Source: a virus. From it: DNA of 64,000 nt. The notes below the pieces were generated by a model that did no database searches, was not told where the DNA came from, and saw only the letters and a list, made by a program, of their open reading frames with translations. Position numbers and translations under genes: made by a program. Position 1 is the stretch's first letter; the number at the start of each line of letters is the position of its first letter. The DNA lies in the IMG/VR virus record IMGVR_UViG_3300010399_000006, positions 1-64,000 of that record, one strand, 5' to 3'. Shown here one piece after another: positions 41,154 to 59,264 of this stretch.

Positions 41154-41438
41154 TTACTGCTCTTCTACTTCTTCTGGTTGCTCTGTATCCGAAAGAATCG
41201 TCTGCGGTACGGCGAGCGCGAACTCCAATCCCTTGATGAACCCCTGCATCTCCCGCCAGTCTCCGTCGTCTTTACCTCTCCTCCGGCTACGCTGGTAGAT
41301 TTCCGACCGCAGGAGCCGCACCCATTCCTTGACCACTTGGGAGCGGCTGAAGGTTGTCCAGTCCCGAGGATTGATCGACACCGGCAGGAACAGATCCGTT
41401 GCCTCCGGCATTTGGAACAGGTCCAGATTGAGACTCAT
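41154..41438 (-). CDS. Small protein overlapping the portal gene end
   Basis: 94 residues, starting inside the portal gene 152 nt before its stop, in another frame. GGGAGG lies 6 nt before the ATG. LFLPVSINPRDWTTFSRSQVVKEWVRLLRSEIYQRSRRR is well-formed helical protein. The tail is acidic (TEQPEEVEEQ). Location suggests a head-assembly factor; function unknown. Confidence 0.7.
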   Translation of the reverse strand: MSLNLDLFQMPEATDLFLPVSINPRDWTTFSRSQVVKEWVRLLRSEIYQRSRRRGKDDGDWREMQGFIKGLEFALAVPQTILSDTEQPEEVEEQ

Positions 41439-43653: not shown

Positions 43654-43812
43654 CTATTTACGTTCCGATCTGCTGGAGCTGTTGGGCTTGAACCCGGCTT
43701 CGTTCCGATTCACGACCAGCACACGTCCATCCGGAGTAAAGATCTTCACACTGGTGCGCTCTTTCGATTCGACCGTTACTGTCTTCTGCCACACTGCCGG
43801 ATCATCACTCAC
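43654..43812 (-). CDS. Small protein between terminase and portal
   Basis: 52 residues, GTG start overlapping the upstream stop (GTGA), GAGAGG 8 nt before. WQKTVTVESKERTSVKIFTPDGRVLVVN is a beta-like segment; the end is Ser/Arg-rich. Its stop abuts the portal ATG. A long opposite-strand frame here is rejected. Confidence 0.65.
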   Translation of the reverse strand: MSDDPAVWQKTVTVESKERTSVKIFTPDGRVLVVNRNEAGFKPNSSSRSERK

Positions 43813-44174
43813 CGTTCAACCTCTCGATCTGCCGCGTGGTGGAAAGCGTCCGCCCCGTCCACTGGAGGATCTTCCATTACCCGTTGCGCCGCATCACGCG
43901 GCAGATCCAAAAGTCGAGTGTGAATTGCCACGAAATGTCTCGTTGCCGAGCAGGAGTGAGTATCCCAATACGGATTCGTCGGATCGGCCCACGGCACATC
44001 AAACGTGTCAGCGTAGTTGCCAGCAAACACCTGTGGGCACGCGGTACATTGAAGAAAGCCGAGGGCGTTTCGTTCAGTTACACGTACTTCTTCACCATCG
44101 CCCAATAACATCGTTATTCCGGCTTGGACTTCGGGCTTGCAGACCCCACCAACTACACGGTTGGTCAGTTCCAT
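43809..44174 (-). CDS. Zinc-binding small protein of the packaging cluster
   Basis: 121 residues from an ATG with GGAG 5 nt upstream, overlapping the large terminase stop by 10 nt. FLQCTACPQVFAGNYADTF and a later CSATRHF-x5-H suggest a C2H2-type finger. The C-terminal helix (RDAAQRVMED) is polar. Not recognised. Confidence 0.65.
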   Translation of the reverse strand: MELTNRVVGGVCKPEVQAGITMLLGDGEEVRVTERNALGFLQCTACPQVFAGNYADTFDVPWADPTNPYWDTHSCSATRHFVAIHTRLLDLPRDAAQRVMEDPPVDGADAFHHAADREVER

Positions 44175-46099: not shown

Positions 46100-46674
46100 G
46101 AAGCAACTCCCTCCGCTACGTCCCCAACCACCTCAGCGTCGATGGCATCAGCAGCGACTACTCCAGCGGGCAATCTACCGAGCAGGCGTTGGGACTTGAT
46201 CATGTCGATCTCCTGCTCCTGAGCTGCTAGTTCCCGTACTGTTTTGGGATTGAACACGGCGTGCATGATCCCGCCAGAGTGCTTGATATCGAGACTCCCC
46301 TTGGGCTTACCTTCGATGTACTCAATCACTCTCCACGCCGAATCGATATCTCCGTCTTTGATCGCTGCGACGATCTGGCTCCACGCCTCGCCGAGCTGTT
46401 CTTCCATCTTCGCCCGTAGGCTCTTGGCGGTGACTTCGATGGTAGATACCTGCTTTTCGCGCTTGGCCAGTAGTGCCCAATCGAGCAGTCGTTGGTACTC
46501 GGATTTGTGTTGGGGGTCATTGAGGTGCTTGTAGAGCATCCGGACGGAGACGCCGGTTGGCTTGTTGCTGGTGGAGATGCGGGCGGCGATCTCTCCTTCG
46601 TTATGTCCGAATGCGCGCAAGACGATCATCTGCACACAGAAGAGGCACGCGGTATCTGGAACTCGGGCGGTCAT
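46096..46674 (-). CDS. Putative terminase small subunit
   Basis: 192 residues. N-terminal helix-turn-helix-like part (VLRAFGHNEGEIAARIST ... VRMLYKHLND), a coiled-coil middle (TIEVTAKSLRAKMEEQLGEAWSQIVAAI) and an acidic C-terminus (AEVVGDVAEG). DNA recognition plus oligomerisation is the expected small-terminase design, and it precedes the large subunit with a 4-nt overlap. No ribosome site is evident before the ATG. Confidence 0.7.
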   Translation of the reverse strand: MTARVPDTACLFCVQMIVLRAFGHNEGEIAARISTSNKPTGVSVRMLYKHLNDPQHKSEYQRLLDWALLAKREKQVSTIEVTAKSLRAKMEEQLGEAWSQIVAAIKDGDIDSAWRVIEYIEGKPKGSLDIKHSGGIMHAVFNPKTVRELAAQEQEIDMIKSQRLLGRLPAGVVAADAIDAEVVGDVAEGVAS

Positions 46675-46975
46675 AACGTGATCACGCTGGTGGGGGTAGA
46701 GGTAGGTGTGGAGGTGTCGGAACCGCCCGTTGGAAGGGCCGGTATGAGGGCGATTGAGGTGGTTGGAACGGACGGTTCTGACACTACCGATCAGAGTGAG
46801 GTTGGTATAGACCGGCTGTCAATATCGATGCGTCCCCAGACAGAGTGGCGGTAAGTGGTTGGTAAAGTAGTTGACTAGTTGGTGGTGTGGATCTAAGATG
46901 CGTTTCCAACGTGGCGGCCAGAATTCGCAAAAGATGCTCGAATTGCAGGTTGAGGGCGTCAAGGAAACGTGATTT
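46675..46975. other. Divergent intergenic region between late and rightward operons
   Basis: 301 nt without a gene. It separates the terminase operon (leftward) from the GroES-like operon (rightward). A rightward promoter is clear at 46871-46899. A TTGACA on the minus strand (46821-46816) could be the -35 box of the late operon, but no convincing -10 box is spaced correctly. G/T-rich on the plus strand. Confidence 0.6.
46871..46899 (+). promoter_or_regulatory. Promoter for the 47-49 kb operon
   Basis: TTGACT (46871-46876), a 17-bp spacer and TAAGAT (46894-46899). The leader to GTG at 46976 is about 70 nt and carries AAGGA. Confidence 0.6.
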
Positions 46976-47491
46976 GTGCCCAAGATGCTATTCGAAGGCA
47001 CGTCGGAACGGACTTCTGCCAGTACTGCCGAGCAAGATACCGCCGAGATCGAGGAGGAACGAGTGACTAAGCAAATAACTAAATCGGAAATGGCAACTGA
47101 AGAGGAAAAGATCGCCGAAGCACAGCGGAGGTACCGGTTGTGTGCTGGACGGATTCTGGTGGCGCGGGATCAGGTACCGGTTGCGGCGGATGGAGAGTAT
47201 GTGGCATCCAAGGTGGTCACTGCTGGTGGGCAAGAGGTAGCAATTCTGGGTACTCAGGAGCGCGGCCAGATCAATCAGGCGTTCGAGCCCTGGGGGCAAG
47301 TGCTGCTGATTGGGAATAGATACAAACCGGGTGACTACCGGCCGGACGTGAAGATCGGCCAGCGGGTGTTCTTCTCACCAACTGGAGCGAGGGATCTGGA
47401 GCTGGTGGTGGGTGAGGAGAAGATGACGGTGACGATGATTCCATTCGAAGCAGTAGTGATGGTAGATACCGGAGAGAAGGTAGACGCGTGA
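46976..47491 (+). CDS. GroES-like co-chaperonin
   Basis: 171 residues. After a polar, acidic N-terminus (1-52), the rest follows the Cpn10 plan: RILVARDQVPV (first strand), SKVVTAGGQEVAILGTQERGQI (mobile-loop region), WGQVLLIGNRYKPGDYRPDVKIGQRVFFSPTG (G-xVL-xxG ... VKxGDxVxF) and TMIPFEAVVMV (C-terminal strand). Phages use such proteins to help host GroEL fold capsid proteins. It is the first gene of its operon, next to the terminase. Moderately sure. Confidence 0.65.
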   Translation: MPKMLFEGTSERTSASTAEQDTAEIEEERVTKQITKSEMATEEEKIAEAQRRYRLCAGRILVARDQVPVAADGEYVASKVVTAGGQEVAILGTQERGQINQAFEPWGQVLLIGNRYKPGDYRPDVKIGQRVFFSPTGARDLELVVGEEKMTVTMIPFEAVVMVDTGEKVDA

Positions 47492-48078
47492 ACGACGAGC
47501 AGAAAGCATACGCGGCGACTCCATCGGCTGATCTCGAACGGCAGATCATGGACTCCAGTGTACCGAAGAACGAACGCGAACGCTGGGCTTCGCATGAGAT
47601 CCACAGACTGAGAGACATCATCGATGGTGGATGTCCGATGCATCCAGTTGGTGGGATTGGACGGGCGAAGAAGAAGTTCCTATCGGTGTGTGCGGAGTGG
47701 GCAGATGCGCTGATCGGAGATGCCGTTAGGACGAAGGAGTATGGCTACACGATCAAGTTCAAGCCCGAAGATGTGATCCCCAAAGTGGTCTACGGTGAGC
47801 CGGAAGCGGAAGCGTCGATGGCTACCGAACTTCTCGCCATCATCCGAGAAATGAATGGGACTCTATCTAATTCGACTCTACCGGCGGAGATCAGGGTTGG
47901 AATGGTACGTACTCTAGTCAACCAGACTGTGGAGAGATACCGTAGTGACGTAATCATGAAGGGCATTCGTATCGACGAACTACCGGACGTTCAGCGGAAG
48001 GTGTGGTTGGCTGGATGGCAGTTGATGGTTGATGCGTGGGACGCCACACCGACTTCAGCACCGGAGATCTCACCTTGA
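47488..48078 (+). CDS. Helical protein, unknown
   Basis: 196 residues, GTG start in GTGA overlap. Helices: SADLERQIMDSSVPKNERERWASHEIHRLRDI, KKKFLSVCAEWADALIGD, MATELLAIIREMNGTLSN, EIRVGMVRTLVNQTVERYRSD. No motif recognised. Confidence 0.7.
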   Translation: MNDEQKAYAATPSADLERQIMDSSVPKNERERWASHEIHRLRDIIDGGCPMHPVGGIGRAKKKFLSVCAEWADALIGDAVRTKEYGYTIKFKPEDVIPKVVYGEPEAEASMATELLAIIREMNGTLSNSTLPAEIRVGMVRTLVNQTVERYRSDVIMKGIRIDELPDVQRKVWLAGWQLMVDAWDATPTSAPEISP

Positions 48079-48224
48079 AGGCCAGATTCAAACCGAAACA
48101 CCCATTCTCGAAACGTGAGCTACTGCGAAAACTCCAGAGGTTCCTGTGGGTCGTGTTCGGGTGGATAGCACCAGAGATCACAACCAGAATGTGCGAGAGA
48201 CTAGGAAAAGTGAGGGTTGAATGA
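48075..48224 (+). CDS. Small basic protein with hydrophobic segment
   Basis: 49 residues, TTG start in TTGA overlap with the preceding stop. Basic start (LKARFKPKHPFSKRELLRKLQRF), short hydrophobic segment (LWVVFGWIAPEI), basic end. Its stop overlaps the next ATG. Possibly membrane-associated; unknown. Confidence 0.5.
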   Translation: MKARFKPKHPFSKRELLRKLQRFLWVVFGWIAPEITTRMCERLGKVRVE

Positions 48225-48553
48225 AAACCTGTGCGCGATGTGAAATCGAAAAACTGACGTTCGCCGTCAAGGCTCAGTACCGAATCCTCTTCGAGCTGAT
48301 ACCGCTCGTTGGGCTGAGTTCTACCGAGCGCCGTATCGAGCCAGCGCGGGATCGGGCGATGAAAGAGCTGAACGGGATTGTGGAGAACTGGAGGACTCAT
48401 GTCTGTACGCACCAACCAGCGATCAAGCCGGAAACAGTCAGACCGGAAGAAGTCAAGCCGGAACCAAAAGCGGAAGCAGAAGAGCCAGCCGAAGAATCGA
48501 CCGAAGAGCCGATCATCGAATCGTCAGCCCCCAAAACCAAAAAGAAGAAGTAG
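48221..48553 (+). CDS. Small protein with CxxC and acidic Pro-rich tail
   Basis: 110 residues. TCARCEIEKLTF begins a compact helical domain (FELIPLVGLSSTERRIEPARDRAMKELN). The C-terminal 45 residues are Glu/Pro/Ala repeats ending KTKKKK. That acidic tail is read in the next frame by the following gene as a Lys/Arg/Ser-rich tract. Confidence 0.65.
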   Translation: MKTCARCEIEKLTFAVKAQYRILFELIPLVGLSSTERRIEPARDRAMKELNGIVENWRTHVCTHQPAIKPETVRPEEVKPEPKAEAEEPAEESTEEPIIESSAPKTKKKK

Positions 48554-48764
48554 ACCCTCGGTATCTACCACTAGTACTGATCTGCCGGATGCGGTACGAT
48601 TGGACGTTGTGGTAGGTACTCTCTCCACGCAGATCCCAACGGAGTGGTTGGGAGACGGGAAGAAGATGGCTGAGGTGAAGGCGAAGATGCTGGGTAAGGT
48701 TGGTGGGGAGATAGATCGGGTGATTGGTGGGGCGGTGGAGAAGTGGATGGAGCTAACTCGATGA
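48399..48764 (+). CDS. Small protein overlapping the preceding gene by 155 nt
   Basis: 121 residues from an ATG with GGAGG 6 nt upstream. The first 50 residues, read through the acidic tail of the previous gene in another frame, are Lys/Arg/Ser/Gln-rich. The remainder is normal: VRLDVVVGTLSTQIPTEWLG, MAEVKAKMLGKVGGEIDRVIGGAVEKW. A TTG at 48600 is an alternative start that would avoid the overlap but lacks a good ribosome site. Confidence 0.5.
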   Translation: MSVRTNQRSSRKQSDRKKSSRNQKRKQKSQPKNRPKSRSSNRQPPKPKRRSRPSVSTTSTDLPDAVRLDVVVGTLSTQIPTEWLGDGKKMAEVKAKMLGKVGGEIDRVIGGAVEKWMELTR

Positions 48765-48788
48765 CTCTAGATATCGGAGGATCGTCTG

Positions 48789-49310
48789 ATGGGCGGAGAC
48801 GCTAGTCACCACACTGATTTCGAGCCCACCGCCGAGGATCGAGAGATGGCAGAGAAGCTATCCGAACTCGGAGACCTGTTCGCCGATGTCTTTGCCGATG
48901 TCCCACGGGACGGAGACGTGAGTACGGTCACTAGTCTGCTGAAGGATCGGGCGTATCTGTTTTTCTATGGATCGTTGACGACTATGGAGTTGTGGACGAG
49001 AGTAGCTAGGGCATTCCGTATTGCCGGATTCAAGATCGACTTCGGAGCGGGCAGGAGAAATCCACACGAGCCGTATGAGTTCCGTGCCCAGTACATGTGC
49101 GAGCCTCAGCGTCCAGTACCGGGTACGTACTGCCGTAGATGTGGACATTCAGATCCGATGTACATGGATCGGATGGCAGCCAAGGTACGTAGAGATGGTG
49201 ATGGACGTACGGAGTTACCGTGCTGTGGCAATAAGCATTGCTTATGTACATCGCACATGGTGGAGACGTACACCGTAGATACCACGTCTCCGTGGCCTTC
49301 GCTGCGTTGA
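48789..49310 (+). CDS. Zinc-binding protein, unknown
   Basis: 173 residues. Acidic helical first half (TAEDREMAEKLSELGDLFADVFADV), AYLFFYGSLTTMELWTRVARAF, then a Cys-rich end (YCRRCGHSD, LPCCGNKHCLCTSH). CxxC pairs suggest one or two zincs. Unknown. Confidence 0.65.
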   Translation: MGGDASHHTDFEPTAEDREMAEKLSELGDLFADVFADVPRDGDVSTVTSLLKDRAYLFFYGSLTTMELWTRVARAFRIAGFKIDFGAGRRNPHEPYEFRAQYMCEPQRPVPGTYCRRCGHSDPMYMDRMAAKVRRDGDGRTELPCCGNKHCLCTSHMVETYTVDTTSPWPSLR

Positions 49311-49321
49311 TCTTTCGGTAG

Positions 49322-49351
49322 TTGACTGGTACGTACCATCAGTGGTAGCAT
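49322..49351 (+). promoter_or_regulatory. Leaderless promoter with GGTACGTACC operator-like site
   Basis: TTGACT (49322-49327) and TAGCAT (49346-49351), 18-bp spacing, ATG at 49359. The perfect palindrome GGTACGTACC occupies 49328-49337, directly after the -35 box. No ribosome site fits before the ATG. Confidence 0.65.
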
Positions 49352-49358
49352 CCTCAGC

Positions 49359-50129
49359 ATGGATACCACCAGCAGTTCGCAGCCACAACCTAAAGATCCA
49401 CGGCTCAACCCTACTCTCGCGGACAAGGTAGCGAAGGCGAGGGCACGCTGGGAGGGTCGTCGGTCGGGCGGTGGTGGTAGAAGTAAGATCACTGCATCAT
49501 TCGACGATCTGTTGGATCTGATCGTGCCAGACTGCTTGACGTGGAGCGACATTGGATCAGAGCTGGGTGTATCGCGAGAGCGAGCGCGGCAGATCTTCCG
49601 TGATTACTTCTCTGCACTGTTCCCGAAGTATAGGTTTCCGGGTAGAAAGCGGCGACGAGTCTGCTCCATTCAGAGGCGAGTGGAGCGGATCAAGGCGTTG
49701 GAGCCGGTTGGTAACGCCGCTGAGGCTGCCCGGCGAGCATGGTTGGCCGGTATCGCGGACGTTCGGGCAGTTACCTACCCCAAGAGCGTGAGAGCTTCAT
49801 CGCTGCGTCTGATCGTGAACGGCAAGGCGGTGACGGTACGTAGCAGTAAAAGCCCATCCATAATGCACCCCCGTTCATTGGTTGGTTATTACCGGTTTCC
49901 GACTACGGCGGGCCAGACCCTACCGTGTGAGTTCGTGATTCTGCTGGCTGGAACGCAGACATTCGTGATGCCGCGTGATGTGTTTATGTCATGGAATGGT
50001 AACCTCAGCGGAAATGCAGTTAGGGATAGGTACATACCTGAGCATCCGAACACGTATTGGATGAACGCCCATCTGGGACAGACAGACTGGTTGTGGCAAT
50101 ACCGTGAAGCGTGGCATCTACTGAAGTAA
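49359..50129 (+). CDS. Transcription regulator with sigma-region-4-like helix-turn-helix
   Basis: 256 residues. LTWSDIGSELGVSRERARQIFRDYFSALF (residues about 60-90) is the helix-turn-helix of sigma region 4, including the VSRERxRQI recognition helix. A basic stretch follows (GRKRRRVCSIQRRVERIK). The C-terminal 140 residues form an alpha/beta domain (SLRLIVNGKAVTVRSSKSP, PCEFVILLAGTQTFVMPRDVF) without a recognised family. No other sigma regions are present, so it is probably a DNA-binding regulator rather than a sigma factor. Own leaderless promoter. Confidence 0.75.
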   Translation: MDTTSSSQPQPKDPRLNPTLADKVAKARARWEGRRSGGGGRSKITASFDDLLDLIVPDCLTWSDIGSELGVSRERARQIFRDYFSALFPKYRFPGRKRRRVCSIQRRVERIKALEPVGNAAEAARRAWLAGIADVRAVTYPKSVRASSLRLIVNGKAVTVRSSKSPSIMHPRSLVGYYRFPTTAGQTLPCEFVILLAGTQTFVMPRDVFMSWNGNLSGNAVRDRYIPEHPNTYWMNAHLGQTDWLWQYREAWHLLK

Positions 50130-50143
50130 ACAGGTGTGTACCA

Positions 50144-50284
50144 ATGGAACTCTACCGCTCGTACGACTGGATCACCGCACTGCTGTTCTACCTCGGATTG
50201 GCCGGACTGGTAGTGCTGGTGGATTGGGCATTCTGGGGTAGAAACGGAAATGGAGATAGCCGTGGTCGTGGAGGTAGACCATGA
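50144..50284 (+). CDS. Small single-pass membrane protein
   Basis: 46 residues: ITALLFYLGLAGLVVLVDWAFWG is one membrane helix, with a Gly/Arg-rich cytoplasmic tail. ATGA overlap with the next small gene. Unknown. Confidence 0.5.
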   Translation: MELYRSYDWITALLFYLGLAGLVVLVDWAFWGRNGNGDSRGRGGRP

Positions 50285-50394
50285 AATGCGATGACGATGA
50301 TTTCAACGAAGACGCAGGTGATGTGGTGCTGGCTATTCGTGGGTTTAAACGGTGCGGGTGTCGGAGATCGAATCGGTTGGAGCCAATCGTCTAA
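50281..50394 (+). CDS. Very small acidic/Cys protein
   Basis: 37 residues, ATGA-coupled upstream and TAATG-coupled downstream. Acidic start (KCDDDDFNEDAGD) and FKRCGCRRS end. Support comes only from coupling and frame continuity. Confidence 0.4.
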   Translation: MKCDDDDFNEDAGDVVLAIRGFKRCGCRRSNRLEPIV

Positions 50395-50636
50395 TGGCCG
50401 TCAGAATCAGACTCGGCGGTAGTCCCATCGTCTGCGCCGCGATGCACCCCGAACTACCCGGAGATGTCTACATCGATGATCCACTCCACTATCGTCTCAG
50501 TACGGAGTACGGCATCCTCGTCAGCGAGTACATGGAGCGGCACAAACTGGACGGGCTGTGGTGGTGGTACGACGAGGTACCGGAGGGTAGAGTGATCGAT
50601 CCGTTCTACGCCGGTCAGAGGGGGTCGATTTGGTAG
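50394..50636 (+). CDS. Small protein, unknown
   Basis: 80 residues, ATG overlapping the previous TAA (TAATG). Contains IRLGGSPIVCAAMHPELPGDVYIDDPLHYRLSTEYG and EYMERHKLDGLWWWYDEVPEG, a compact aromatic-rich domain. Not recognised. Confidence 0.65.
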   Translation: MAVRIRLGGSPIVCAAMHPELPGDVYIDDPLHYRLSTEYGILVSEYMERHKLDGLWWWYDEVPEGRVIDPFYAGQRGSIW

Positions 50637-50914
50637 ATACCGGTAGTGGTAAGTTCTACCGACCGGTCGGCGCTCCAATCAACCCTACTGCCACCAAACT
50701 GACCGGCCGCTGTACCGGCTGCAAACAATCGTTGGGCTCCCAAGTAACTCAACTCCGGGTGGGTAGGATCTGCTACCTGTGTGATCGGGTGATCCTCCGC
50801 CATGAGAAGTACTTTTTCTCGGAGAGTGGTGTGCGGCATCGGGATTGCGACGATCCAGAGGGGTACGGAGCGGTGGTAGTGCCGATGGATACGGTGGTGG
50901 AGACCGGTAGATAG
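50630..50914 (+). CDS. Zinc-finger small protein
   Basis: 94 residues, TTG start with AGAGGGGG upstream. CTGC near residue 28 and CYLC near 49 form a zinc site, followed by a HEKYFFSESGVRHRDC segment that may supply a second. Resembles LIM/treble-clef arrangements. Unknown. Confidence 0.6.
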   Translation: MVDTGSGKFYRPVGAPINPTATKLTGRCTGCKQSLGSQVTQLRVGRICYLCDRVILRHEKYFFSESGVRHRDCDDPEGYGAVVVPMDTVVETGR

Positions 50915-50949
50915 GTGAGTAGGTGGGTAGTAGGTGAGTAGGTGGGTAG
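50912..50949. repeat. Tandem 19-bp repeat made of TAGGTGRG units
   Basis: TAGGTGAGTAGGTGGGTAG occurs twice without a gap. Each unit holds two TAGGTGRG octamers. The array ends 19 bp before the -35 box of the HerA-like gene. Confidence 0.75.
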
Positions 50950-50968
50950 ATCGAGTGGTAGTTGGTGG

Positions 50969-50998
50969 TTGACACCGGTACGTACCACAGACTACACT
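50969..50998 (+). promoter_or_regulatory. Leaderless promoter with GGTACGTACC operator-like site
   Basis: TTGACA (50969-50974), an 18-bp spacer and TACACT (50993-50998), ATG at 51009. GGTACGTACC (50977-50986) lies in the spacer, as at 49328. No ribosome site precedes the ATG. Confidence 0.65.
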
Positions 50999-51008
50999 CT
51001 ACACCAAC

Positions 51009-52784
51009 ATGAAGAAGCTACACATCGCTGACGATCTATCCCTACCGGTTGACGCCGCAACCCAGACGTTCGCGTTCATCGCACGCAAGGGTGGCGGGAA
51101 GACTTATGCGGCCGGGAAGCTAGTCGAGCTGCTAATGATCGCTGGAGTTCAAGTGGTGGTCATGGATACCGTGGGTAACTGGTACGGTCTGCGGCTCTCT
51201 GCCGACGGTCGCAGTAGAGGATTCGACATTCCCGTGCTCGGTGGTCTGCGCGGAGACATCGATCTGGAAGCACGCGGTGGAGAGTTGATCGCTGACATCG
51301 TTGCTGATACCGGTAGGAGTTTGGTCCTAGATGTAAGTCAGTTCTCGATGACCGACCGAAAGAGGTTCGCCGTTGCGTTCGGTGAACGTCTCTGGCGCCG
51401 AAAGAAGGGCGAGCATCACCCCACTCCGCTACATCTCGTGATCGAGGAGAGTCAGCTGATCGTTCCTCAGTTCACCGGCAAGACCGGTGGAGACGACGCG
51501 CGGATGCTCGGTGTGTACGAGGAGATCATCCGACTAGGCAGGAATTATGGAATTGGCGTGACTATGATCTCCCAGCGACCGCAATCAGTAAATAAGGAAG
51601 TCCTCAACCAAACGGAGTGTCTGTTCGTCGGTCAGGTCAACGGGTCGCAGGAACGCGATGCTCTGAAGAAATGGATCACCCACCAAGGGATGGATGTTGG
51701 ACTGGTTGATGAGTTGCCGTCCCTGGCGGTAGGTACGATGTATGTGTGGTCTCCTCAGTGGTTGAGGATTCTACGCAAGGTACGTATCGGTAAGAAGGAG
51801 ACGTTCGACGCCAGTGCTACGCCAAAGGTCGGTGAGAATCGTCCGAGACGTGAACTGAAGCCGCTCGATTTGGATGACCTGAAGGAGAAGCTGACAGCTA
51901 CGATAGAACGGCAGAGGGCGGAAGATCCGAGGGAGCTGAAGAAACAGATTGCTGATCTGAAACGGCAACTAGACGCCAAGCCAGCGGTAAGTAGGTCGGA
52001 GGTAGATCCGGCGAAGGTACGTGAGCTGGCTGGTAAATTGGCGGATCGTGCAGTGGCGAAGGCGCTACGGCCCATCCACACGCTACATCGGAAACTGGCA
52101 ACGGAGTTCTCGTCTCTGTCGCTCGACTTCGCGGCAATCAACACAGAATTCTCAGATCTGGTGGAGAAGGCCAAAGAGATCGAACAGCCTGATTTGGATC
52201 TGGAAGAGCCTGCGATTAGAAGGGCGGTGGAACCGACAGTCGAACAGCGACGACCAGCACCGCCTACCGTGGCGTCCACGCGCAATCCGGTACCGATTCG
52301 TAATCGACCCAACGGTGACGACGGTAATCAGAAACTCCCCATCGGCGAACGGGCCTGTTTGATCGTCGCGGCGATGCGACCGGACGGAGCAACTAGAACA
52401 GAGATCTCTGTCCAGACCGGATACAAGCGCTCTACTCGCGATGCCTATATCCAGCGGCTACGTGAGAAGGGCTACGTCGAGATATCGAGCGAGAATGTGG
52501 TAGCTACCGATAGCGGTATCGACGCACTGGGCAGTGACTACGAGCCGCTACCAACGGGTAGTGCTCTCCGGGAGTGGTGGATGGGCAGGTTGCCGATCGG
52601 CGAGGCTCAGATTCTCGGGCATCTGGTCAAGGTCTATCCGGACGGCATGGATCGGGACACGATCAGCGATCTGACGGGGTTTAAACGATCTACGAGAGAT
52701 GCATATCTAAAGCGGCTATCGACCAAGAGGTTGGTTGTTGGCGATCGTGGACCGGTAGCTGCGAGCAGGATTCTCTTCAACTAG
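51009..52784 (+). CDS. HerA/FtsK-type ATPase with duplicated winged-helix C-terminus
   Basis: 591 residues. The N-terminal 280 form a HerA-type (DUF87-like) motor: FIARKGGGKT (Walker A, residues 23-32), VVVMDTVGNWYGLR, LHLVIEESQ (Walker B, about 145), RLGRNYGIGVTMISQRPQSV, ECLFVGQV. A coiled coil follows (about 300-410). The C-terminal 150 hold two similar winged-helix units, each with KRSTRDAYIQRL or KRSTRDAYLKRL. Hexameric HerA proteins move DNA in repair, plasmid transfer and defence. Here it stands alone under its own operator-bearing promoter. Confidence 0.8.
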   Translation: MKKLHIADDLSLPVDAATQTFAFIARKGGGKTYAAGKLVELLMIAGVQVVVMDTVGNWYGLRLSADGRSRGFDIPVLGGLRGDIDLEARGGELIADIVADTGRSLVLDVSQFSMTDRKRFAVAFGERLWRRKKGEHHPTPLHLVIEESQLIVPQFTGKTGGDDARMLGVYEEIIRLGRNYGIGVTMISQRPQSVNKEVLNQTECLFVGQVNGSQERDALKKWITHQGMDVGLVDELPSLAVGTMYVWSPQWLRILRKVRIGKKETFDASATPKVGENRPRRELKPLDLDDLKEKLTATIERQRAEDPRELKKQIADLKRQLDAKPAVSRSEVDPAKVRELAGKLADRAVAKALRPIHTLHRKLATEFSSLSLDFAAINTEFSDLVEKAKEIEQPDLDLEEPAIRRAVEPTVEQRRPAPPTVASTRNPVPIRNRPNGDDGNQKLPIGERACLIVAAMRPDGATRTEISVQTGYKRSTRDAYIQRLREKGYVEISSENVVATDSGIDALGSDYEPLPTGSALREWWMGRLPIGEAQILGHLVKVYPDGMDRDTISDLTGFKRSTRDAYLKRLSTKRLVVGDRGPVAASRILFN

Positions 52785-52803
52785 AAATTGGAGGTAGATA
52801 CTG

Positions 52804-52962
52804 ATGGGAATGTTCGATCCACCCGACCCGCCCGATATCAACGATGGACCAGATCCAGAAGAAGAGCGCCAACGCTGGTTGGAGCAGCAAGTGGAAGAGG
52901 AACGGGAGTACGGTCTGTATCTAGCCGAAGTGATGGATCGGGAAGGACTGCCGACCGAATGA
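52804..52962 (+). CDS. Small acidic protein
   Basis: 52 residues: FDPPDPPDINDGPDPEEERQRWLEQQVEEEREYGLYLAE. Strongly acidic with a helical second half; GGAGG lies 8 nt upstream. Stop overlaps the next ATG. It may mimic DNA or bind the preceding ATPase; unknown. Confidence 0.6.
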   Translation: MGMFDPPDPPDINDGPDPEEERQRWLEQQVEEEREYGLYLAEVMDREGLPTE

Positions 52963-53147
52963 ATAACTACTGTCCGCCAGAACTCAGGTACGCCTTGGAG
53001 ATATCGAGAGTCCTTTCTGAGAAATGTACACACGGATGTCGGTACTCTGGCGACTGTCCCCAATGCAGGGTGACCAGGGCGGAGAGACTTCGAGCCTTGG
53101 ACGTAGCCTACGGCAAGAAGAATCGTGATGTCACGTCCTATCGGTAG
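52959..53147 (+). CDS. Small zinc-binding protein
   Basis: 62 residues: LSEKCTHGCRYSGDCPQC gives a C-x3-C-x5-C-x2-C cluster after a short helix, followed by a basic helix (RAERLRALDVAYGKKNRD). ATGA-coupled. Unknown. Confidence 0.6.
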   Translation: MNNYCPPELRYALEISRVLSEKCTHGCRYSGDCPQCRVTRAERLRALDVAYGKKNRDVTSYR

Positions 53148-53163
53148 TACGTTAGTTGACCAC

Positions 53164-53192
53164 TTGACATCCTACGTACCAGTAAGTACTAT
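53164..53192 (+). promoter_or_regulatory. Sigma70-type promoter
   Basis: TTGACA (53164-53169), a 17-bp spacer and TACTAT (53187-53192). TACGTA lies in the spacer and again downstream, related to the GGTACGTACC site. The leader to the ATG at 53237 is about 38 nt. Confidence 0.6.
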
Positions 53193-53236
53193 CTCGTACG
53201 TACAACTGAGTTGGAACTGATTTCGGAGCAGAACTG

Positions 53237-53569
53237 ATGAGCAGAACCTACCGCAACCACCAGAGCCGTACCAAATCAAGGGGGGAGCGAGTTGTCTCCA
53301 ACAGCAATAGCAACAGCAATAGCAATCGAGATAGATCCTTCCGCCAGTTCCAGCTCGTCGTCCACGACCGAGTTACCGACGACGAGGCCGACAGAGGCAC
53401 TAAGCTCGAACTTGACCGCACTGACATCCGTAGATACGACTGTGCCGAGCACGGGACGGTCGTTCCTCTACCAAACAGCTATCGATGTCCGTACTGCCTG
53501 CCGGTCGCCGAAGATGAACACAGTTTTGCTGTCACTGTGGGGAGTAGTGTCGTTCTCAATCCGTCGTGA
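53237..53569 (+). CDS. Small protein with SN repeat and Cys knuckle
   Basis: 110 residues. Basic N-terminus, then SNSNSNSNSN encoded by an AGCAAT/AACAGC microsatellite, a beta-like FRQFQLVVHDRVTDDEADR, and YDCAEHGTVV ... YRCPYC, which could bind zinc. Unknown. The microsatellite may vary in length. Confidence 0.55.
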   Translation: MSRTYRNHQSRTKSRGERVVSNSNSNSNSNRDRSFRQFQLVVHDRVTDDEADRGTKLELDRTDIRRYDCAEHGTVVPLPNSYRCPYCLPVAEDEHSFAVTVGSSVVLNPS

Positions 53570-53629
53570 TCGTACATTTGCCGGTCACTAGTAGTTGAAT
53601 CTGAAAGTCGAAAGCGAGGTAACTAATCT

Positions 53630-54157
53630 ATGGGCCGTACATTCACCAATCTCCACATCCGCAAGTCTCCCAGCACCGACTCCGACACCTTCTGCGGAGG
53701 CAGCCACTCCGAGCTGTGGAAGATCGAACTGCGATCGGTGGCGCCGAATCAGGCCAGCAAGCTGAAATCAGATGATCATCCCTGTCGGCGGTGTCTGAAG
53801 GCGTTCAACGCCAAAGTGGCTACTGATGCCAAGCCGAAGAAAGAGAAGAAAGAGAAGTCAACCAAAGCAGCAAAGACGGCGAAACCGGCGAAGGCCGCAA
53901 AGTCCGGTACGAAGGCGGTAGCGAAACCGGCTGCGAAGGCCGCTGCGAAGACTGCACCGAAGAAAGCAACAGAGAAGAACGCCAAGCCGACAGCGAAACC
54001 GAAGGCGAAGGCCAAAGCGGCCAAAAAGAGCACTGCTGCTCCGCCGTCCACCCCGTCTGCTCCGACCACTCCGATCAGCACGCCAGTACCGGCTCCAGCT
54101 CCGACTCCAGCCGTCGAGCCCGTTGAAGCAGAACCGGACGAACTCGATTCACTGTAA
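53630..54157 (+). CDS. Histone H1-like Lys/Ala/Pro-rich DNA-binding protein
   Basis: 175 residues. A small N-terminal domain (SDTFCGGSHSELWKIELRS ... HPCRRCLKAF) has four Cys/His for zinc. Residues about 65-135 are KPAKAAKSGTKAVAKPAAKAAAK-like repeats as in H1 tails and bacterial H1-like proteins. A Pro/Thr then acidic end follows. Such tails bind DNA without sequence preference; the protein may condense phage or host DNA. GAGGTAAC precedes the ATG. Confidence 0.7.
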   Translation: MGRTFTNLHIRKSPSTDSDTFCGGSHSELWKIELRSVAPNQASKLKSDDHPCRRCLKAFNAKVATDAKPKKEKKEKSTKAAKTAKPAKAAKSGTKAVAKPAAKAAAKTAPKKATEKNAKPTAKPKAKAKAAKKSTAAPPSTPSAPTTPISTPVPAPAPTPAVEPVEAEPDELDSL

Positions 54158-54170
54158 ACTAGTCTCGTCA

Positions 54171-54291
54171 GAGAACCGGGAAGGACCAATTGACCTACCG
54201 CCACGCTGAACTCGCCCAAAGCTCTCCAGCTACCAGCGCGGCGGTCCTCCTGACGGCCTTCCCAGCCGAATAGGTCACCTTCCCGGTTCTC
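54171..54291 (+). ncRNA. Structured RNA element with 14-bp perfect closing stem
   Basis: GAGAACCGGGAAGG (54171-54184) is perfectly complementary to 54278-54291, and ACC/GGT extends it past a 2-nt bulge. Inside, ACCGCCACGCT (54197-54207) pairs with AGCGCGGCGGT (54235-54245) at ten of eleven positions, and an AGCT/AGCT hairpin caps it. The whole is a nested three-helix fold between two genes. No open frame fills it. A regulator of the gene at 54320 or a separate small RNA. Confidence 0.65.
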
Positions 54292-54319
54292 GACGTTTCC
54301 ACCGAGGCAGCGGCAAACC

Positions 54320-54511
54320 GTGTATCGACAGTTCCTACTCAGTTCCGGCAACACCCGTCTCTATACTTGGCTGGAGGACGACCCACGTCTGAAGTCCGGT
54401 ACGGAACTAACTCTGAAGGGAGACGACATGGAGTGGACCGTCGTCGAACGGTACTCGATAACCAGAGAAGATCCACCGGACGTGCGGTGGAGGGTAGGTG
54501 GATTGGTATGA
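54320..54511 (+). CDS. Small beta-rich protein
   Basis: 63 residues, GTG start. RQFLLSSGNTRLYTWLEDDPRL, GTELTLKGDDMEWTVVERYSITRED and WRVGGLV suggest a small SH3-like barrel. Stop overlaps the next ATG. Unknown. Confidence 0.6.
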   Translation: MYRQFLLSSGNTRLYTWLEDDPRLKSGTELTLKGDDMEWTVVERYSITREDPPDVRWRVGGLV

Positions 54512-54831
54512 ACGGCATGCCGAGGTACGACAGTAACTACGTACTAAGTACCGCTGATGATCTGGAACGCACAGCCAACGAGAACGATAGAGCCCTGTCC
54601 GGAATCTTGGTGGTACTGCTGATTGAGTCGGCGGAGATGTTACGCGATTACGCCGAGTCCGGTGCCATCGAGAACACCAATCGACTGGAAAACGTCGTTA
54701 GAGCCGAGATCGCCAAAGAAGTGAACATCGGACCACTAGCGTCGCGACTGCTTCATCGGCTGGACAAGCCGTGCGGGTGTGTCGTGCAGTGCGGATCGGA
54801 AGTAGAGGCTGGAGTGGTCCACAACCGATGA
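54508..54831 (+). CDS. Small helical protein, unknown
   Basis: 107 residues, ATGA-coupled. TADDLERTANENDRALSGILVVLLIESAEMLRDYA is helical with a hydrophobic stretch; the end has PCGCVVQCGSE. Not recognised. Confidence 0.6.
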   Translation: MNGMPRYDSNYVLSTADDLERTANENDRALSGILVVLLIESAEMLRDYAESGAIENTNRLENVVRAEIAKEVNIGPLASRLLHRLDKPCGCVVQCGSEVEAGVVHNR

Positions 54832-55139
54832 GTCAACCTATCTACGGACGGTGGTTCGATGCCAAGACCGTCCCCGGTCCCTCCAGTCCAGACGTGTGGT
54901 ACGTGACCGCCCAACGCAACCAGGAACGCGAGCTGGGTACCGGAGCCGTCATCACGTACACCACTGTTCGAGCACATCTACCGGGCGGACACTTTCCTGA
55001 TTCGGCTGAAGTGTGGATGCGGATACCGCCACCGCCGTGGCTCTGGAGATCCGGTGGAACGACCTACTCACATCTGCACGACAGCGGCTGTGCCTACCGT
55101 GGGTGTGAAGATCCGACGCACGAAGCTCCGACCGAATAG
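54828..55139 (+). CDS. Small Trp/Pro-rich protein
   Basis: 103 residues, ATGA-coupled. YGRWFDAKTVPGP, VWYVTAQRNQERELGTGAVITYTTVRAHLPG, WMRIPPPPWLW and HLHDSGCAYRGCEDPTH with possible metal ligands at the end. Unknown. Confidence 0.55.
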   Translation: MSQPIYGRWFDAKTVPGPSSPDVWYVTAQRNQERELGTGAVITYTTVRAHLPGGHFPDSAEVWMRIPPPPWLWRSGGTTYSHLHDSGCAYRGCEDPTHEAPTE

Positions 55140-55402
55140 CTCAGGTACGTACTCCACCAATCAGTGTGGTAGAATCCCCATTCAGCGGCTCACGCGTAGT
55201 GCGTCGCGGCATGATCTTTTGCGTGCACTTCACTGGAACTGAAGACAGACATCAATCGACTTTGGGGAGTCGGGTCGGTCACAGGGCACGCGCTTGGCCG
55301 ACCACCTGAACCAACCAACCATCAACGCCAGTATTAGGAGATCGACGATGCTCATTCAGAGGGAGGTGGCTATGCGGACAGTTTAGAAAGGAGAACTGAC
55401 GC
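55140..55402 (+). other. Non-coding leader with hairpins and possible promoter
   Basis: 263 nt. AGGTACGTACT lies at about 55142-55152, and a -10-like TAGAAT about 17 nt downstream without a -35 box. TCCCCA near 55177 can pair with TGGGGA near 55264, and GGTCGG with CCGACC within 55274-55304. A 12-codon frame with AGGAG (55348-55386) precedes the next gene. The folding may belong to a larger RNA domain continuing past the tRNA. Confidence 0.45.
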
Positions 55403-55738: not shown

Positions 55739-56090
55739 GAACTTATAGATCCCCCACAGCGGTACTGGTGGGGAGTAAGCCCAGAAAAGACATCAGGAAC
55801 GTCACAGGCTCGTTGATGATGCTGACGACGGGAACCCGAAGTCACCCCGTTAGCTCCGCAATAGGGTCTCGTACATGCGCGGGACGGAGGGGTGTCTACG
55901 GACCTGATGAAACGTGCTGGCAGGGCCGAGGGCGCCTGAAACGAAGTCCCTGGAAGCTGGTCGATCCCGTAGGCCAGCAAATTGCGGTCTGCCGTTGGAG
56001 GGCACCTAGGCCCGCTCGCACATCGGTATCTAAAGCCGTGAAGCCCGGCACGGAACTGCGAACCGGGCACCTGAACTACTGAGTCGAGTC
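55739..56090 (+). ncRNA. Highly structured non-coding RNA candidate beside the tRNA
   Basis: About 350 nt with no convincing gene but many local helices: CCCCAC/GTGGGG near 55752, CACCC plus CTCCG with CGGAGGGGTG (about 55841-55895), GTCTCG/CGGGAC inside it, GTC-TACG-GAC with a UNCG-type loop, GCTGG/CCAGC (about 55956-55978), GGGC/GCCC near 56003 and GCCCGG/CCGGGC (about 56044-56070). Position next to a phage tRNA and helix density recall large ornate phage RNAs such as GOLLD or ROOL, but no conserved motif of those was identified. Confidence 0.5.
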
Positions 56091-56116
56091 GAACGGTACC
56101 TACCCACTACACCGCA

Positions 56117-56533
56117 CTACTCGGGACTGTTACTCGACACCGAGAACGGAAATGGCGGCAACCACACGTTTTGCCCTGGATCGGTCTGCTCACCCTGAAT
56201 AGCAACGATCCTCTCTGCCCACGCCAGCGCCCGCCCGTAGTGCTCATCCCAGCATTCGCGGAACACCAGCTTGCGGAGGGCATCGAACTGCGTCTTGGGC
56301 AACCCCGCCGCCTCCAGCACGGTAAGCACCCCGCCGACCAGATGTTGCGTGTAGTCGCGCAGCTCCCGGACGGCGAACAGCTCGGCGGTGTACGAACTGA
56401 CGGGGATGCGCGGTGAGGAAGTGGATTGAGGTTGGTCGGCACTGATTGCCGCTGGTGACTGGGGCTGGTTGACGGTGAACGTGGCGCCGGACGCACCGGT
56501 TGAATTACCTGAAACTGCTGGGATCTCTGTCAT
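56117..56533 (-). CDS. Reverse-oriented small protein (moron-like)
   Basis: 138 residues, the only leftward gene in this rightward region. GAGAGGAGAC precedes its ATG. Ser/Thr/Pro/Gln-rich first 45 residues, then a helical domain (ELRDYTQHLVGGVLTVLEAAGLPKTQFDALRKLVF, YGRALAWAERIVAI). Helical part resembles small phage structural or acetyltransferase-free unknown proteins; no family assigned. Opposite orientation suggests independent expression. Confidence 0.7.
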   Translation of the reverse strand: MTEIPAVSGNSTGASGATFTVNQPQSPAAISADQPQSTSSPRIPVSSYTAELFAVRELRDYTQHLVGGVLTVLEAAGLPKTQFDALRKLVFRECWDEHYGRALAWAERIVAIQGEQTDPGQNVWLPPFPFSVSSNSPE

Positions 56534-57226
56534 GGAATGTCTCCTCTCTACTCTCTAACTCAGTATCTACTGATCTCAAACTTAACTGGTGTTCGACTCG
56601 ACTTAGTAGCGATACTAACACCAACCAGTCCAGTAGTCACTGCTCGCGGTACAGTTCACCTCCCAGCACCTACCACCACTCTCCATCCACCACCACAACT
56701 GAACTTCCCTAACCCACTGATTCCTAACTACTTTACGCCATAAAGTAACCACCACCGATACCTCGACCCACCGACCTGCACGCCGTGAACTGCTACCCGT
56801 TGATTGGTATGTACTGTTTGTGATTTTTTGTTGCGTAGCGGTAAGATGTTGCGCCCCACCACTTCTCCGCCTCGAATGGGACATGGGCTAGGGTGCCTGA
56901 TGGACTTAGTTACACACCTATTCACTAACTGATAGGTGGTGGAGTGGTAGTTGTGTAAGTGCTAGATGCTGACCAGTGGTCAGTAAACTGAGCGGTGGTT
57001 AGTGAACGTGTTCAATAGTTGATAGCTACCACATCTATCTACCGCGCGGCGGTGGTGGGTCGTGGGGATATGCCGCTCTCGCGGACCTTGTGAACCTGGC
57101 GACGTGACGGATCGGCAGGCGAGCGGACCGTCTAACCGTCCAGCCCCTCCAGCCATCGAGCCGTCCGGCCCTCGATAGCGCGGCGGAGCGGTACGCGGGC
57201 AGTGCCGCCAACCCCTGCCAAATTAG
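56534..57226. other. Long non-coding region
   Basis: About 690 nt with no credible gene. The left part is C/A-rich on the plus strand with several stop codons. A hairpin CACCTAT/ATAGGTG lies near 56913-56936, a 15-bp palindrome at 56969-56983 and ATCGAG/CTCGAT near 57154-57176. It runs into the palindrome array at 57227. Together they are the best candidate in the window for an origin or control region. Confidence 0.55.
56969..56983. promoter_or_regulatory. 15-bp palindrome, operator-like
   Basis: CTGACCA-G-TGGTCAG, perfect with a single central base, in the long non-coding region. A dimeric DNA-binding protein is a likely ligand. Not repeated exactly elsewhere that I noticed. Confidence 0.5.
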
Positions 57227-57358
57227 TTGGGAGTCCATTCAATGGGAGACCATACGATATTGCATGGGAGACCAAGTAATAACGTATGGGATACCAAGCA
57301 ATCGCCCCGCCAATCACCGTGCGGCAGATGTATGGGAGCCAATTGAATGGGAGTCCAT
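57227..57358. repeat. Array of six ATGGGAG-N-CCA palindromic sites
   Basis: Copies begin at 57227 (TTGGGAGTCCAT), 57242, 57264, 57286, 57332 and 57347, spaced 15, 22, 22, 46 and 15 bp. Most read ATGG-N4-CCAT or CCAA, so each is an interrupted palindrome. Spacings of 22 bp equal two helical turns, placing sites on one face. This is an iteron or operator array ending 128 bp before the leaderless promoter at 57486. Confidence 0.75.
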
Positions 57359-57485
57359 CCATCTGTGGATCAGTCCATCAGAGGTACGTTCACAGTGGTT
57401 AAGGTGGAGGGAGAGAGGTGCGGGTCGTATCTACTTCCGTCATCATTGGAACATAGAAATAGTTCGCTGATGTGGCTAATTCATA

Positions 57486-57514
57486 TTGACTTTGGTACAT
57501 ACCGGATGTATATT
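57486..57514 (+). promoter_or_regulatory. Leaderless promoter with GGTACATACC site
   Basis: TTGACT (57486-57491), a 17-bp spacer and TATATT (57509-57514), ATG at 57521. GGTACATACC (57494-57503) sits in the spacer, a one-base variant of the site at 49328 and 50977. Confidence 0.65.
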
Positions 57515-57520
57515 GATTGC

Positions 57521-58069
57521 ATGCAAACCGAGCAAAAACTCCTACACGCCACCTGCCGTCGTTGCGATTGGGAACGCCGTGAGGACGAGTACGAAACATA
57601 CTGCCGACCGGATGTGCTGCATGATTACCCGACGCCGGAAGGTATTGCAGTCAGCACGCGACGGGCGGCCCTGCGAGCATGGTTCGAGTCTCATCCTAAC
57701 GCAATGTACGCGTATGAGTTCTTCGACGGGCGAATCATCGAAGAGTCAGCCTACGTTGCCTCCCTCACGTCGCGCACAGCGCGGCTAGTAGCTATCGCGT
57801 CGGACGGCTTTCCGGCGCTGAGATCGCGCTATACGGTGGATCTGCCGGCGGCCGTGCGGAAGCTGCAAGAGGACATCGCAGCGGGATACGCGGCTGCCGC
57901 GCGAATCGGAGCAAAGTCAATCGTGCGGTTCCACGGGCGGCGCAGCATCGAGCAGGAGCAGGACCAGGGGGAGCAGGAGTTACCGCCGTGCGTCCTAGCA
58001 ATGGGTTGCTACTGCGCCGGGCATGCACGCGGGAATCCGAGCAGCGCGGCGTGTGATACGACCGAATGA
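57521..58069 (+). CDS. Zinc-binding protein from a leaderless message
   Basis: 182 residues from ATG 57521, placed by the promoter; ATG 57506 lies inside the -10 region and is rejected. CRRCDWERREDEYETYC near the start may bind zinc. A helical region follows (STRRAALRAWFESHPNAMYAYEFFDG, RLVAIASDGFPALRSRYTVDLPAAVRKLQED), then a Gln/Glu stretch and a Cys-rich tail (PCVLAMGCYCAGHARGN). First gene of the last operon. Unknown. Confidence 0.65.
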   Translation: MQTEQKLLHATCRRCDWERREDEYETYCRPDVLHDYPTPEGIAVSTRRAALRAWFESHPNAMYAYEFFDGRIIEESAYVASLTSRTARLVAIASDGFPALRSRYTVDLPAAVRKLQEDIAAGYAAAARIGAKSIVRFHGRRSIEQEQDQGEQELPPCVLAMGCYCAGHARGNPSSAACDTTE

Positions 58070-58099
58070 AGCGGACAAAGGAAGAGGAGAGGAACGGCA

Positions 58100-58462
58100 A
58101 TGAACGCGACGAACAGAGTACCGGTTGGAATCAACTTCTGCGACCACGGACACCATACCGACGACGAGACACGATTGCTCCCGATCGGTGGGGGTGGCAA
58201 CGTCATCGTTTGCTTCACTCACTGGGAGTATGAACTGCGATTCAGGCGGGAGCGCATCGCGGCTGGCGTGCCTTTCGATCTGCCTGAGTGGAAATCGCTG
58301 GCGATCTACGGCACTGAAGCTGTGCAGCAACCGGCCCGGCGAATCGGCGCCGGAGAACTGGCAGCGTACGAGCGAGTTCCCAGTGTTCGGGTACAGCTGC
58401 ACTGCCTGTGGCGGGCGGTTTCGCAGCGACGAACGGACACCCTACGCGAACCTGAACGGTAA
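58100..58462 (+). CDS. Small protein, C-terminus possibly frameshifted
   Basis: 120 residues with AGGAGAGG upstream. NFCDHGHHTDDETRLLPIGGGGNVIVCFTHWEYELRFRRERIA and VPFDLPEWKSLAIYGTE are well formed. The last 35 residues are Arg-rich and less convincing, while an overlapping frame reads a clean zinc knuckle. Either two genes overlap or one gene shifts frame. Confidence 0.55.
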   Translation: MNATNRVPVGINFCDHGHHTDDETRLLPIGGGGNVIVCFTHWEYELRFRRERIAAGVPFDLPEWKSLAIYGTEAVQQPARRIGAGELAAYERVPSVRVQLHCLWRAVSQRRTDTLREPER

Positions 58463-58517
58463 GCCGTTCGAAGCGTACCGCTGCGACGTTTGCCACAACG
58501 CGGCAGTGGGCGTGTAG
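58383..58517 (+). CDS. Small zinc-ribbon protein overlapping the previous gene
   Basis: 44 residues from a GTG. FGYSCTACGGRFRS and YRCDVCHNAAVG form a CxxC ... CxxC zinc ribbon. It overlaps the preceding frame by 80 nt. No strong ribosome site, so it may be the real C-terminus of the upstream gene. Confidence 0.45.
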   Translation: MFGYSCTACGGRFRSDERTPYANLNGKPFEAYRCDVCHNAAVGV

Positions 58518-58584
58518 CGGGCGTTGACTCTCGCGCACTCCTCACCACGAGTAGCGGGGTGGGGAGGGTGGGAGGTTCAAACCA

Positions 58585-58725
58585 ATGGATCAAATTCAGA
58601 GCACTACGGTTCAGGTTTCCTACTTGCTTGAAACCGCCGTTGCTATAGTCGCATTCAGCGTCGGCATCACCGTTTGGCTGTTGTTCGTGGCGTGGCCGTG
58701 GCCGTTCGCTGTTTCGGTGGGTTGA
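58585..58725 (+). CDS. Small membrane protein
   Basis: 46 residues: LETAVAIVAFSVGITVWLLFVAWPWPF is one membrane helix after a short polar start. GGGAGG lies about 12 nt upstream. Unknown. Confidence 0.5.
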   Translation: MDQIQSTTVQVSYLLETAVAIVAFSVGITVWLLFVAWPWPFAVSVG

Positions 58726-58734
58726 CGACAGTAA

Positions 58735-58800
58735 GGTGACGGTTGCGCTGCTGCACACTCGCGAACCCTGGGCGACTGTGCAGCGAGCGGAGGTGTCACC
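58735..58800 (+). promoter_or_regulatory. Hairpin element around the ribosome site of the 58801 gene
   Basis: GGTGAC (58735-58740) pairs with GTCACC (58795-58800), immediately before the GTG start. Inside, CTGCACA (58751-58757) pairs with TGTGCAG (58777-58783). The GGAGG site lies between the two 3' strands. The fold could limit ribosome access; a regulatory role is inferred. Confidence 0.45.
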
Positions 58801-58995
58801 GTGAGCGGAACATTCAAAGTGGAGTTCAGTACCGATAACGCAGCATTCGAGTGCGACGGAGCGACGGTAACGGGTCGCAACATCGAGATCGCCCGCATTC
58901 TGCGTCAGATCGCGGAGCAGGTGGACAACGATGAGGAGTCCGGCAGCGTGCGCGACGCGAACGGCAACAAGGTCGGAACGTGGGGTGTCAAGTGA
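58801..58995 (+). CDS. Small protein, unknown
   Basis: 64 residues, GTG start with GGAGG upstream. FKVEFSTDNAAFECDGATVTGRNIEIARILRQIAEQVDND: a beta hairpin then a helix, resembling a common small phage protein type. Coupled to the next gene. Confidence 0.65.
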   Translation: MSGTFKVEFSTDNAAFECDGATVTGRNIEIARILRQIAEQVDNDEESGSVRDANGNKVGTWGVK

Positions 58996-59264
58996 AGCGG
59001 GCAAGCATCGCCACTGCTCTGCTGTTCGTCGCCACAACCGCCGTAGCAGCCGTCACGCCCACCACTCCGCCGAAGTGGTACGTGGCCCGAGTGCGCCACG
59101 TGCAGGGCACCGAGATTCGGCCGGCGTGTGGTGAGCTGTATGGGCCATTCCGCAAGGGTGAGATCGCTGCCGAGTTCTGCTCGCACATCCCGACGCCCGC
59201 CTACAGTTGCACCGTTGAGCCTGTGCTGCCGCGTAGTGAGTGGATGAGGAAGGGGGCACGATGA
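58992..59264 (+). CDS. Small exported protein
   Basis: 90 residues from GTG 58992 (GTGA overlap). MKRASIATALLFVATTAVAA-type N-terminus is a signal peptide with likely cut after VAA. The mature part has three Cys (RPACGEL, EFCSHIPTPAYSC). Periplasmic; unknown role. Confidence 0.6.
   Translation: MKRASIATALLFVATTAVAAVTPTTPPKWYVARVRHVQGTEIRPACGELYGPFRKGEIAAEFCSHIPTPAYSCTVEPVLPRSEWMRKGAR

Follow-up and report, generated by a model that had tools for sequence, protein, structure and literature searches.

The window, by which we mean the whole stretch of DNA analysed (64,000 bases), covers bases 1-64000 of a virus record that is 72,850 bases long. The first and last 124 bases of the record are identical (the opening 50 bases are found again at 72727 and the closing 50 at 73-122, without mismatch), and the record therefore closes into a circle. 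The virus is a tailed phage, with PHROGs or Pfam matches for terminase, portal, polymerase, helicase and HerA-like genes. The Pfam scans covered 10, 10 and 66 ORFs in overlapping sets, with ten large leftward ORFs and the polymerase outside them. The PHROGs scans covered 10, 10, 10, 66, 10, 24 and 26 ORFs, again in overlapping sets, and the families listed were 25 of 58 in the 66-ORF scan and 25 of 41 in the 24-ORF scan. The features at the locus of interest are as follows.

56117-56533, minus strand: divergent leftward gene, 138 aa, no family match
56534-57520: gene-free gap holding the array, 987 bp
56905-57010: second dyad cluster, with TTACACA/TGTGTAA, TTCACTAAC/GTTAGTGAA and CTGACCA-G-TGGTCAG
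57222-57243, plus strand: dyad unit 1, 22 bp, 14/14 consensus positions, 7-bp overlap with unit 2
57237-57258, plus strand: dyad unit 2, 22 bp, 13/14 consensus positions
57259-57280, plus strand: dyad unit 3, 22 bp, 14/14, abuts units 2 and 4
57281-57302, plus strand: dyad unit 4, 22 bp, 12/14 consensus positions
57303-57326: gap without a unit, 24 bp, best other match touching it 8/14
57327-57348, plus strand: dyad unit 5, 22 bp, 11/14, CCA shifted by one base, 7-bp overlap with unit 6
57342-57363, plus strand: dyad unit 6, 22 bp, 12/14 consensus positions
57364-57372, minus strand: DnaA-box-like word TGATCCACA, one mismatch to the DnaA-box consensus TTATCCACA, 13 such matches in the record
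57428-57527: A+T-rich stretch, 64% A+T, includes the promoter and the start of the gene
57486-57514, plus strand: sigma-70-type promoter match TTGACT-17-TATATT, 10/12 consensus match
57521-58069, plus strand: leaderless gene, 182 aa, no family match above the curated cut-off

The gap at 56534-57520 is the largest in a hand-made gene list over 563-58517, and it corresponds to the gene-free region of about 1 kb described in an earlier note on this DNA. The gap contains two ORFs, of 89 and 76 aa, that look spurious; among the scans that included both, one gave three PHROGs of unknown function, as families not tied to their members. The leaderless promoter that the same note had placed near the array is found as the consensus match TTGACT-17-TATATT, with an ATG 6 nt after the -10 element. 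Three further good leaderless promoters are located at 49359, 51009 and 72434. The structure predictions for the 182-aa protein (mean pLDDT 32.5) and for an HTH-containing protein encoded at 49359-50129 (mean pLDDT 42.4) were both too poor to support a search by fold. The A+T-rich stretch 57428-57527 ranks second among the non-overlapping 100-bp windows of the record. The second dyad cluster lies about 210 bp to the left of the array in the same gap, with an RNA folding z of -2.4 for 56895-57025. The plus strand also changes abruptly from C-rich to G-rich near 56800, within the gap: positions 56651-56800 contain 15 G and 66 C, and positions 56801-56850 contain 15 G and 3 C.

Several other features of the record were observed. 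A tRNA gene with a CTA anticodon, which ARAGORN calls Pyl, is located at 15-108 (again at 72741-72834 of the record) and is a possible amber suppressor. Were TAG read as sense, 5 of the 18 listed TAG-ended ORFs would extend by 88-162 codons and the others by 1-38. A VWA-like protein encoded at 13858-14547 has relatives of 40-43% identity in Microbacterium phages, which gives a faint hint of an actinobacterial host. The gene at 53630-54157 has, by eye, a lysine-alanine-proline-rich, histone-H1-like tail. The plus strand 4-fold GC skew over 41200-55200 is mostly 0.2-0.5 up to about 50 kb, in genes of both directions, and then near zero or mixed. Some short words exceed their expected number record-wide, with GTACGTAC occurring 32 times (1.0 expected) and GTAGATAC/GTATCTAC 23 times (1.75 expected), and GTANNTAC prefers CG in its middle (32/107).

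The array is built on six 12-bp dyads starting at 57227, 57242, 57264, 57286, 57332 and 57347, with successive spacings of 15, 22, 22, 46 and 15 bp, exactly as the earlier note had given them. The word ATGGN4CCAT is exact in two of the six sites and deviates at one position in the other four; the site at 57332 (ATGGGAGCCAAT), one base short, fits TGG-N3-CCA better. Words with up to one mismatch to ATGGN4CCAT occur 25 times across the 64-kb window against 22.0 expected, i.e. without enrichment, so that the bare word is meaningless and the improbable feature is the clustering of the sites. The six sites fall within a span of 121 bp, while in 300 first-order Markov genomes the largest cluster per 121 bp was at most one site in 99 genomes, two in 196 and three in 5. 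When the 72,850-bp record was scanned with a matrix on both strands, the six sites took ranks 1-6, a result that is partly true by construction since the matrix was built from the same sites; in leave-one-out scans the omitted site still ranks 2nd to 9th. The next match after the six is TTGGGAGCCCAA at 50732 on the minus strand. All six sites share an asymmetric GGGA centre in the same orientation. Because every centre reads GGGA on the plus strand, the dyads are also direct repeats.

Alignment of the flanks shows an imperfect palindrome of 22 bp, ATTNNWTGGNNNNCCAWNNAAT, to be the actual unit, with outer arms beyond the 12-bp dyad reading ATT at one end and the mirrored AAT at the other. Arm agreement is 29/36, a value reached by none of 20,000 randomised flanks (highest 28), where the cores and local base composition were kept, arm distance and sequence were left free, and overlapping pairs share bases. 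The copies vary in their linkers and keep the arms and core, and the centre of unit 5 is reduced to three bases. With a 22-bp unit, the 22-bp steps correspond to abutting units and the 15-bp steps to units overlapping by 7 bp. Units 2, 3 and 4 (57237, 57259, 57281) abut exactly, and the 7-bp overlaps are ATTCAAT in units 1-2 and ATTGAAT in units 5-6. Of the 21 offsets at which units would overlap, only five (4, 10, 15, 16 and 20), the observed 15 among them, leave the consensus free of conflict with itself. The description of the spacing as helical is appropriate for the 22-bp steps (about 2.1 turns) but not for those of 15 bp (about 1.4) and 46 bp (about 4.4). We consider the six units to be a real array of dimer-type sites.

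In the lambda CI/Cro switches, several dyad operators follow one another at about 20-24 bp close to an early promoter. The present array is alike in having several dyads at similar steps near a promoter, but no repressor is recognised, the sites lie 122-264 bp upstream and no divergent promoter is seen. In iteron plasmid origins (P1, F, RK2, pSC101), as here, same-orientation repeats, a near-helical 22-bp step and an adjoining DnaA-box-like word are found; however, plasmid iterons bind monomers (PMC5043065), whereas the sites here are dyads, and no Rep protein was found. The lambda ori has 19-bp inverted repeats which bind O dimers beside a 40-bp A+T-rich region (PMC5043065), and the iterons of lambdoid phages are located inside the initiator gene (PMC7466680). 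These origins, including the six-iteron origins of Stx phages, resemble the array in having a row of dyads, each about 20 bp long and suited to a dimer, with an A+T-rich region on one side (PMC5043065, PMC7466680). In contrast to them, the array lies outside an initiator gene, has another sequence and two overlapping pairs, no O-like protein was found, and the A+T-rich stretch is 64 bp away and overlaps a promoter. The stoperators of Cluster A mycobacteriophages are asymmetric 13-mers, monomer-bound and spread through the genome (PMC9283540). They share repeated one-orientation sites with the array, which differs in consisting of dyads in one cluster. The stoperator reading was therefore rejected, as the phage has one dyad cluster and two weak outliers in ORFs, not asymmetric sites dispersed over the genome. 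The TtrR box GTGG-N4-CCAC has the TGG-N4-CCA skeleton in common by letters only, with no sign of kinship. A literature search, mostly without full text, did not find such an array described; the sequence of the array is new, while its kind is already known.

No close relative with the same gene order was found in the searches made. A blastn search of 56001-59000 against 50,697 phage records gave no match. By tblastn, distant matches only were obtained for the polymerase, helicase, HerA-like and VWA-like proteins and none for TerL, portal and the 182-aa protein. Viral contigs were also scanned with peptides of the 182-aa protein, the HerA-like protein, TerL and the polymerase; these scans, which detect close relatives only, gave no relative. 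One capsid-domain relative was found (contig L011), in a record from which a TerL match is absent; the presumed capsid protein, when scanned against genomes, gave no match. The array pattern itself was matched elsewhere 23 times, the 15-bp pair in 6 viral matches and the 22-bp pair in 4 viral and 13 genome matches. None of these has the architecture of the array; they are pairs in open frames, lone pairs or plain tandem repeats, as assessed by motif counts for six contigs (L003-L008), by sequence and ORFs as well for L007 and L008, and around the match for the other 17. Near-perfect tandem repeats with TGGGANNCCA cores occur in unrelated genomes (L047, L054-L058), among them 22-bp units in a Thiotrichaceae bin.

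Most probably a virus protein docks on the six copies, and would there either start DNA copying or control early genes. The earlier note had named an iteron-type origin and a multi-operator switch as the main options. Both still rank ahead of the other readings, and the idea of an array of dimer sites gains strength from the 22-bp dyad unit. GC skew lends the origin no support. We regard a lambda-type iteron replication origin, with putative initiator dimers on the dyads, as the best explanation, with close to an even chance of being correct. In such an origin, one phage initiator dimer would occupy each 22-bp dyad; the abutting units 2, 3 and 4 would align three dimers on nearly one face of the DNA, while units 1-2 and 5-6, which share an arm, would hold paired dimers on roughly opposite faces. 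The resulting nucleoprotein complex would bend and strain the DNA and open the A+T-rich stretch 57428-57527 to its right, possibly helped by rightward transcription from 57486-57514, and copying would start at the array.

The predicted sites are, in form, suited to a dimeric initiator, and the origin reading is favoured by the same-orientation dyad repeats with their 22-bp period, by the A+T-rich neighbour 64 bp to the right, and by the location in the largest gene-free gap listed, where a second dyad cluster also lies. However, the A+T-rich stretch is shared with the promoter, which explains it equally well, and this argues against an origin. Also against it, unit 5 is imperfect, the 46-bp step breaks the phase, and the DnaA-like box is only one of 13 in the record and for that reason not significant by itself. 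No initiator gene, O-like or other, was recognised beside the array or among the scan matches listed, which counts against the origin as well, as does the contrast with lambdoid iterons in that the array is not inside such a gene. The GC-skew check proposed in the earlier note was run at 4-fold sites gene by gene and gave no support for an origin at the array: there was no significant sawtooth (42 of 300 permutations were as good), and 57300 is a poor break point.

The HerA-like ATPase gene (51009-52784) has weak HTH matches near its C-terminus. Its relatives, collected with a two-sequence profile, occur in 31 viral contigs which have almost nothing else in common with the phage. In three of the 31 (L022, L024, L027), short repeats are found inside a gene matching replication-initiation PHROGs beside HerA, which is in favour of the origin; L024 passes a looser repeat filter only, not that of the density count. 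In another contig (L013), repeats judged similar by eye only lie inside a 302-aa ORF 4.8 kb from HerA. Repeat clusters near HerA are 1.7 times denser, with 11 in 152 kb compared with 17 in 399 kb farther away, a count which also included L009. This enrichment is weak and, like the distance of 4.4 kb between the present array and HerA, speaks against the origin.

A serious though doubtful alternative is an array of operators or upstream-activator sites, in which a phage or host dimeric regulator on the six dyads would control the promoter 57486-57514. This promoter heads a rightward gene block that continues through the end of the record to the replication genes at 0-11 kb, and it shares one gap with the dyads. 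However, the sites extend from 264 bp to 122 bp upstream of the -35 element, too far for simple occlusion, and the operators of a multi-operator switch would be expected to overlap or touch the promoter, whose -35 element is 122 bp from the last 22-bp unit. Sites with up to two mismatches outside the array number 2 against 0.27 expected (maximum 2 in 200 shuffles), and one of them, a dyad with two mismatches at 50727-50748 that is among the two next-best, is about 220 bp upstream of the -35 element of the leaderless start at 51009. On the other hand, this outlier is within the apparent coding frame 50630-50914, the one at 47850 is within the ORF 47488-48078, and no comparable site is close to the promoters at 49359 and 72434. 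A repressor was not recognised among the Pfam and PHROGs matches listed, where a very diverged one could be missed. More specifically, no integrase, CI-type repressor or ParA/ParB/ParR is among these matches, which weakens a lysogeny switch and counts in favour of the origin. It also makes improbable a centromere-like partition site or an array of integrase arm sites in a temperate or plasmid-like phage, although repeats at a fixed spacing in a gene-free gap would suit such sites in form.

The same palindromes could be transcribed into a structured RNA, with nested hairpins of the plus strand in which the shared orientation would be loop sequence. Of 200 shuffles, only one folds as well as the 151-nt plus strand (z -3.2, compared with -1.1 for the minus strand), but any set of palindromes folds well and the single units are weak (-0.3 to -6.1 kcal/mol). 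Since a promoter match upstream of the array and an Rfam match at E up to 1 are both absent, this explanation is quite improbable. Chance, or a decayed satellite repeat without function, might be considered because tandem repeats of the same core exist in unrelated genomes. Here the linkers differ while the arms and core are kept, and no simulation reached either the observed cluster size or the arm agreement, so that this possibility is very small indeed.

The origin and operator readings could also be combined. The abutting and arm-sharing registers may form a single two-state platform, in which the abutting trio would open the origin and the arm-sharing end pairs would set early transcription, both run by an initiator-regulator without known relatives in an orphan phage group; we consider this unlikely. 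For most uncultured phages, neither origins nor early switches have been mapped. At 142 bp, the precisely delimited array is short enough for assays of replication or promoter control, and it could also serve as bait to capture its binding protein.
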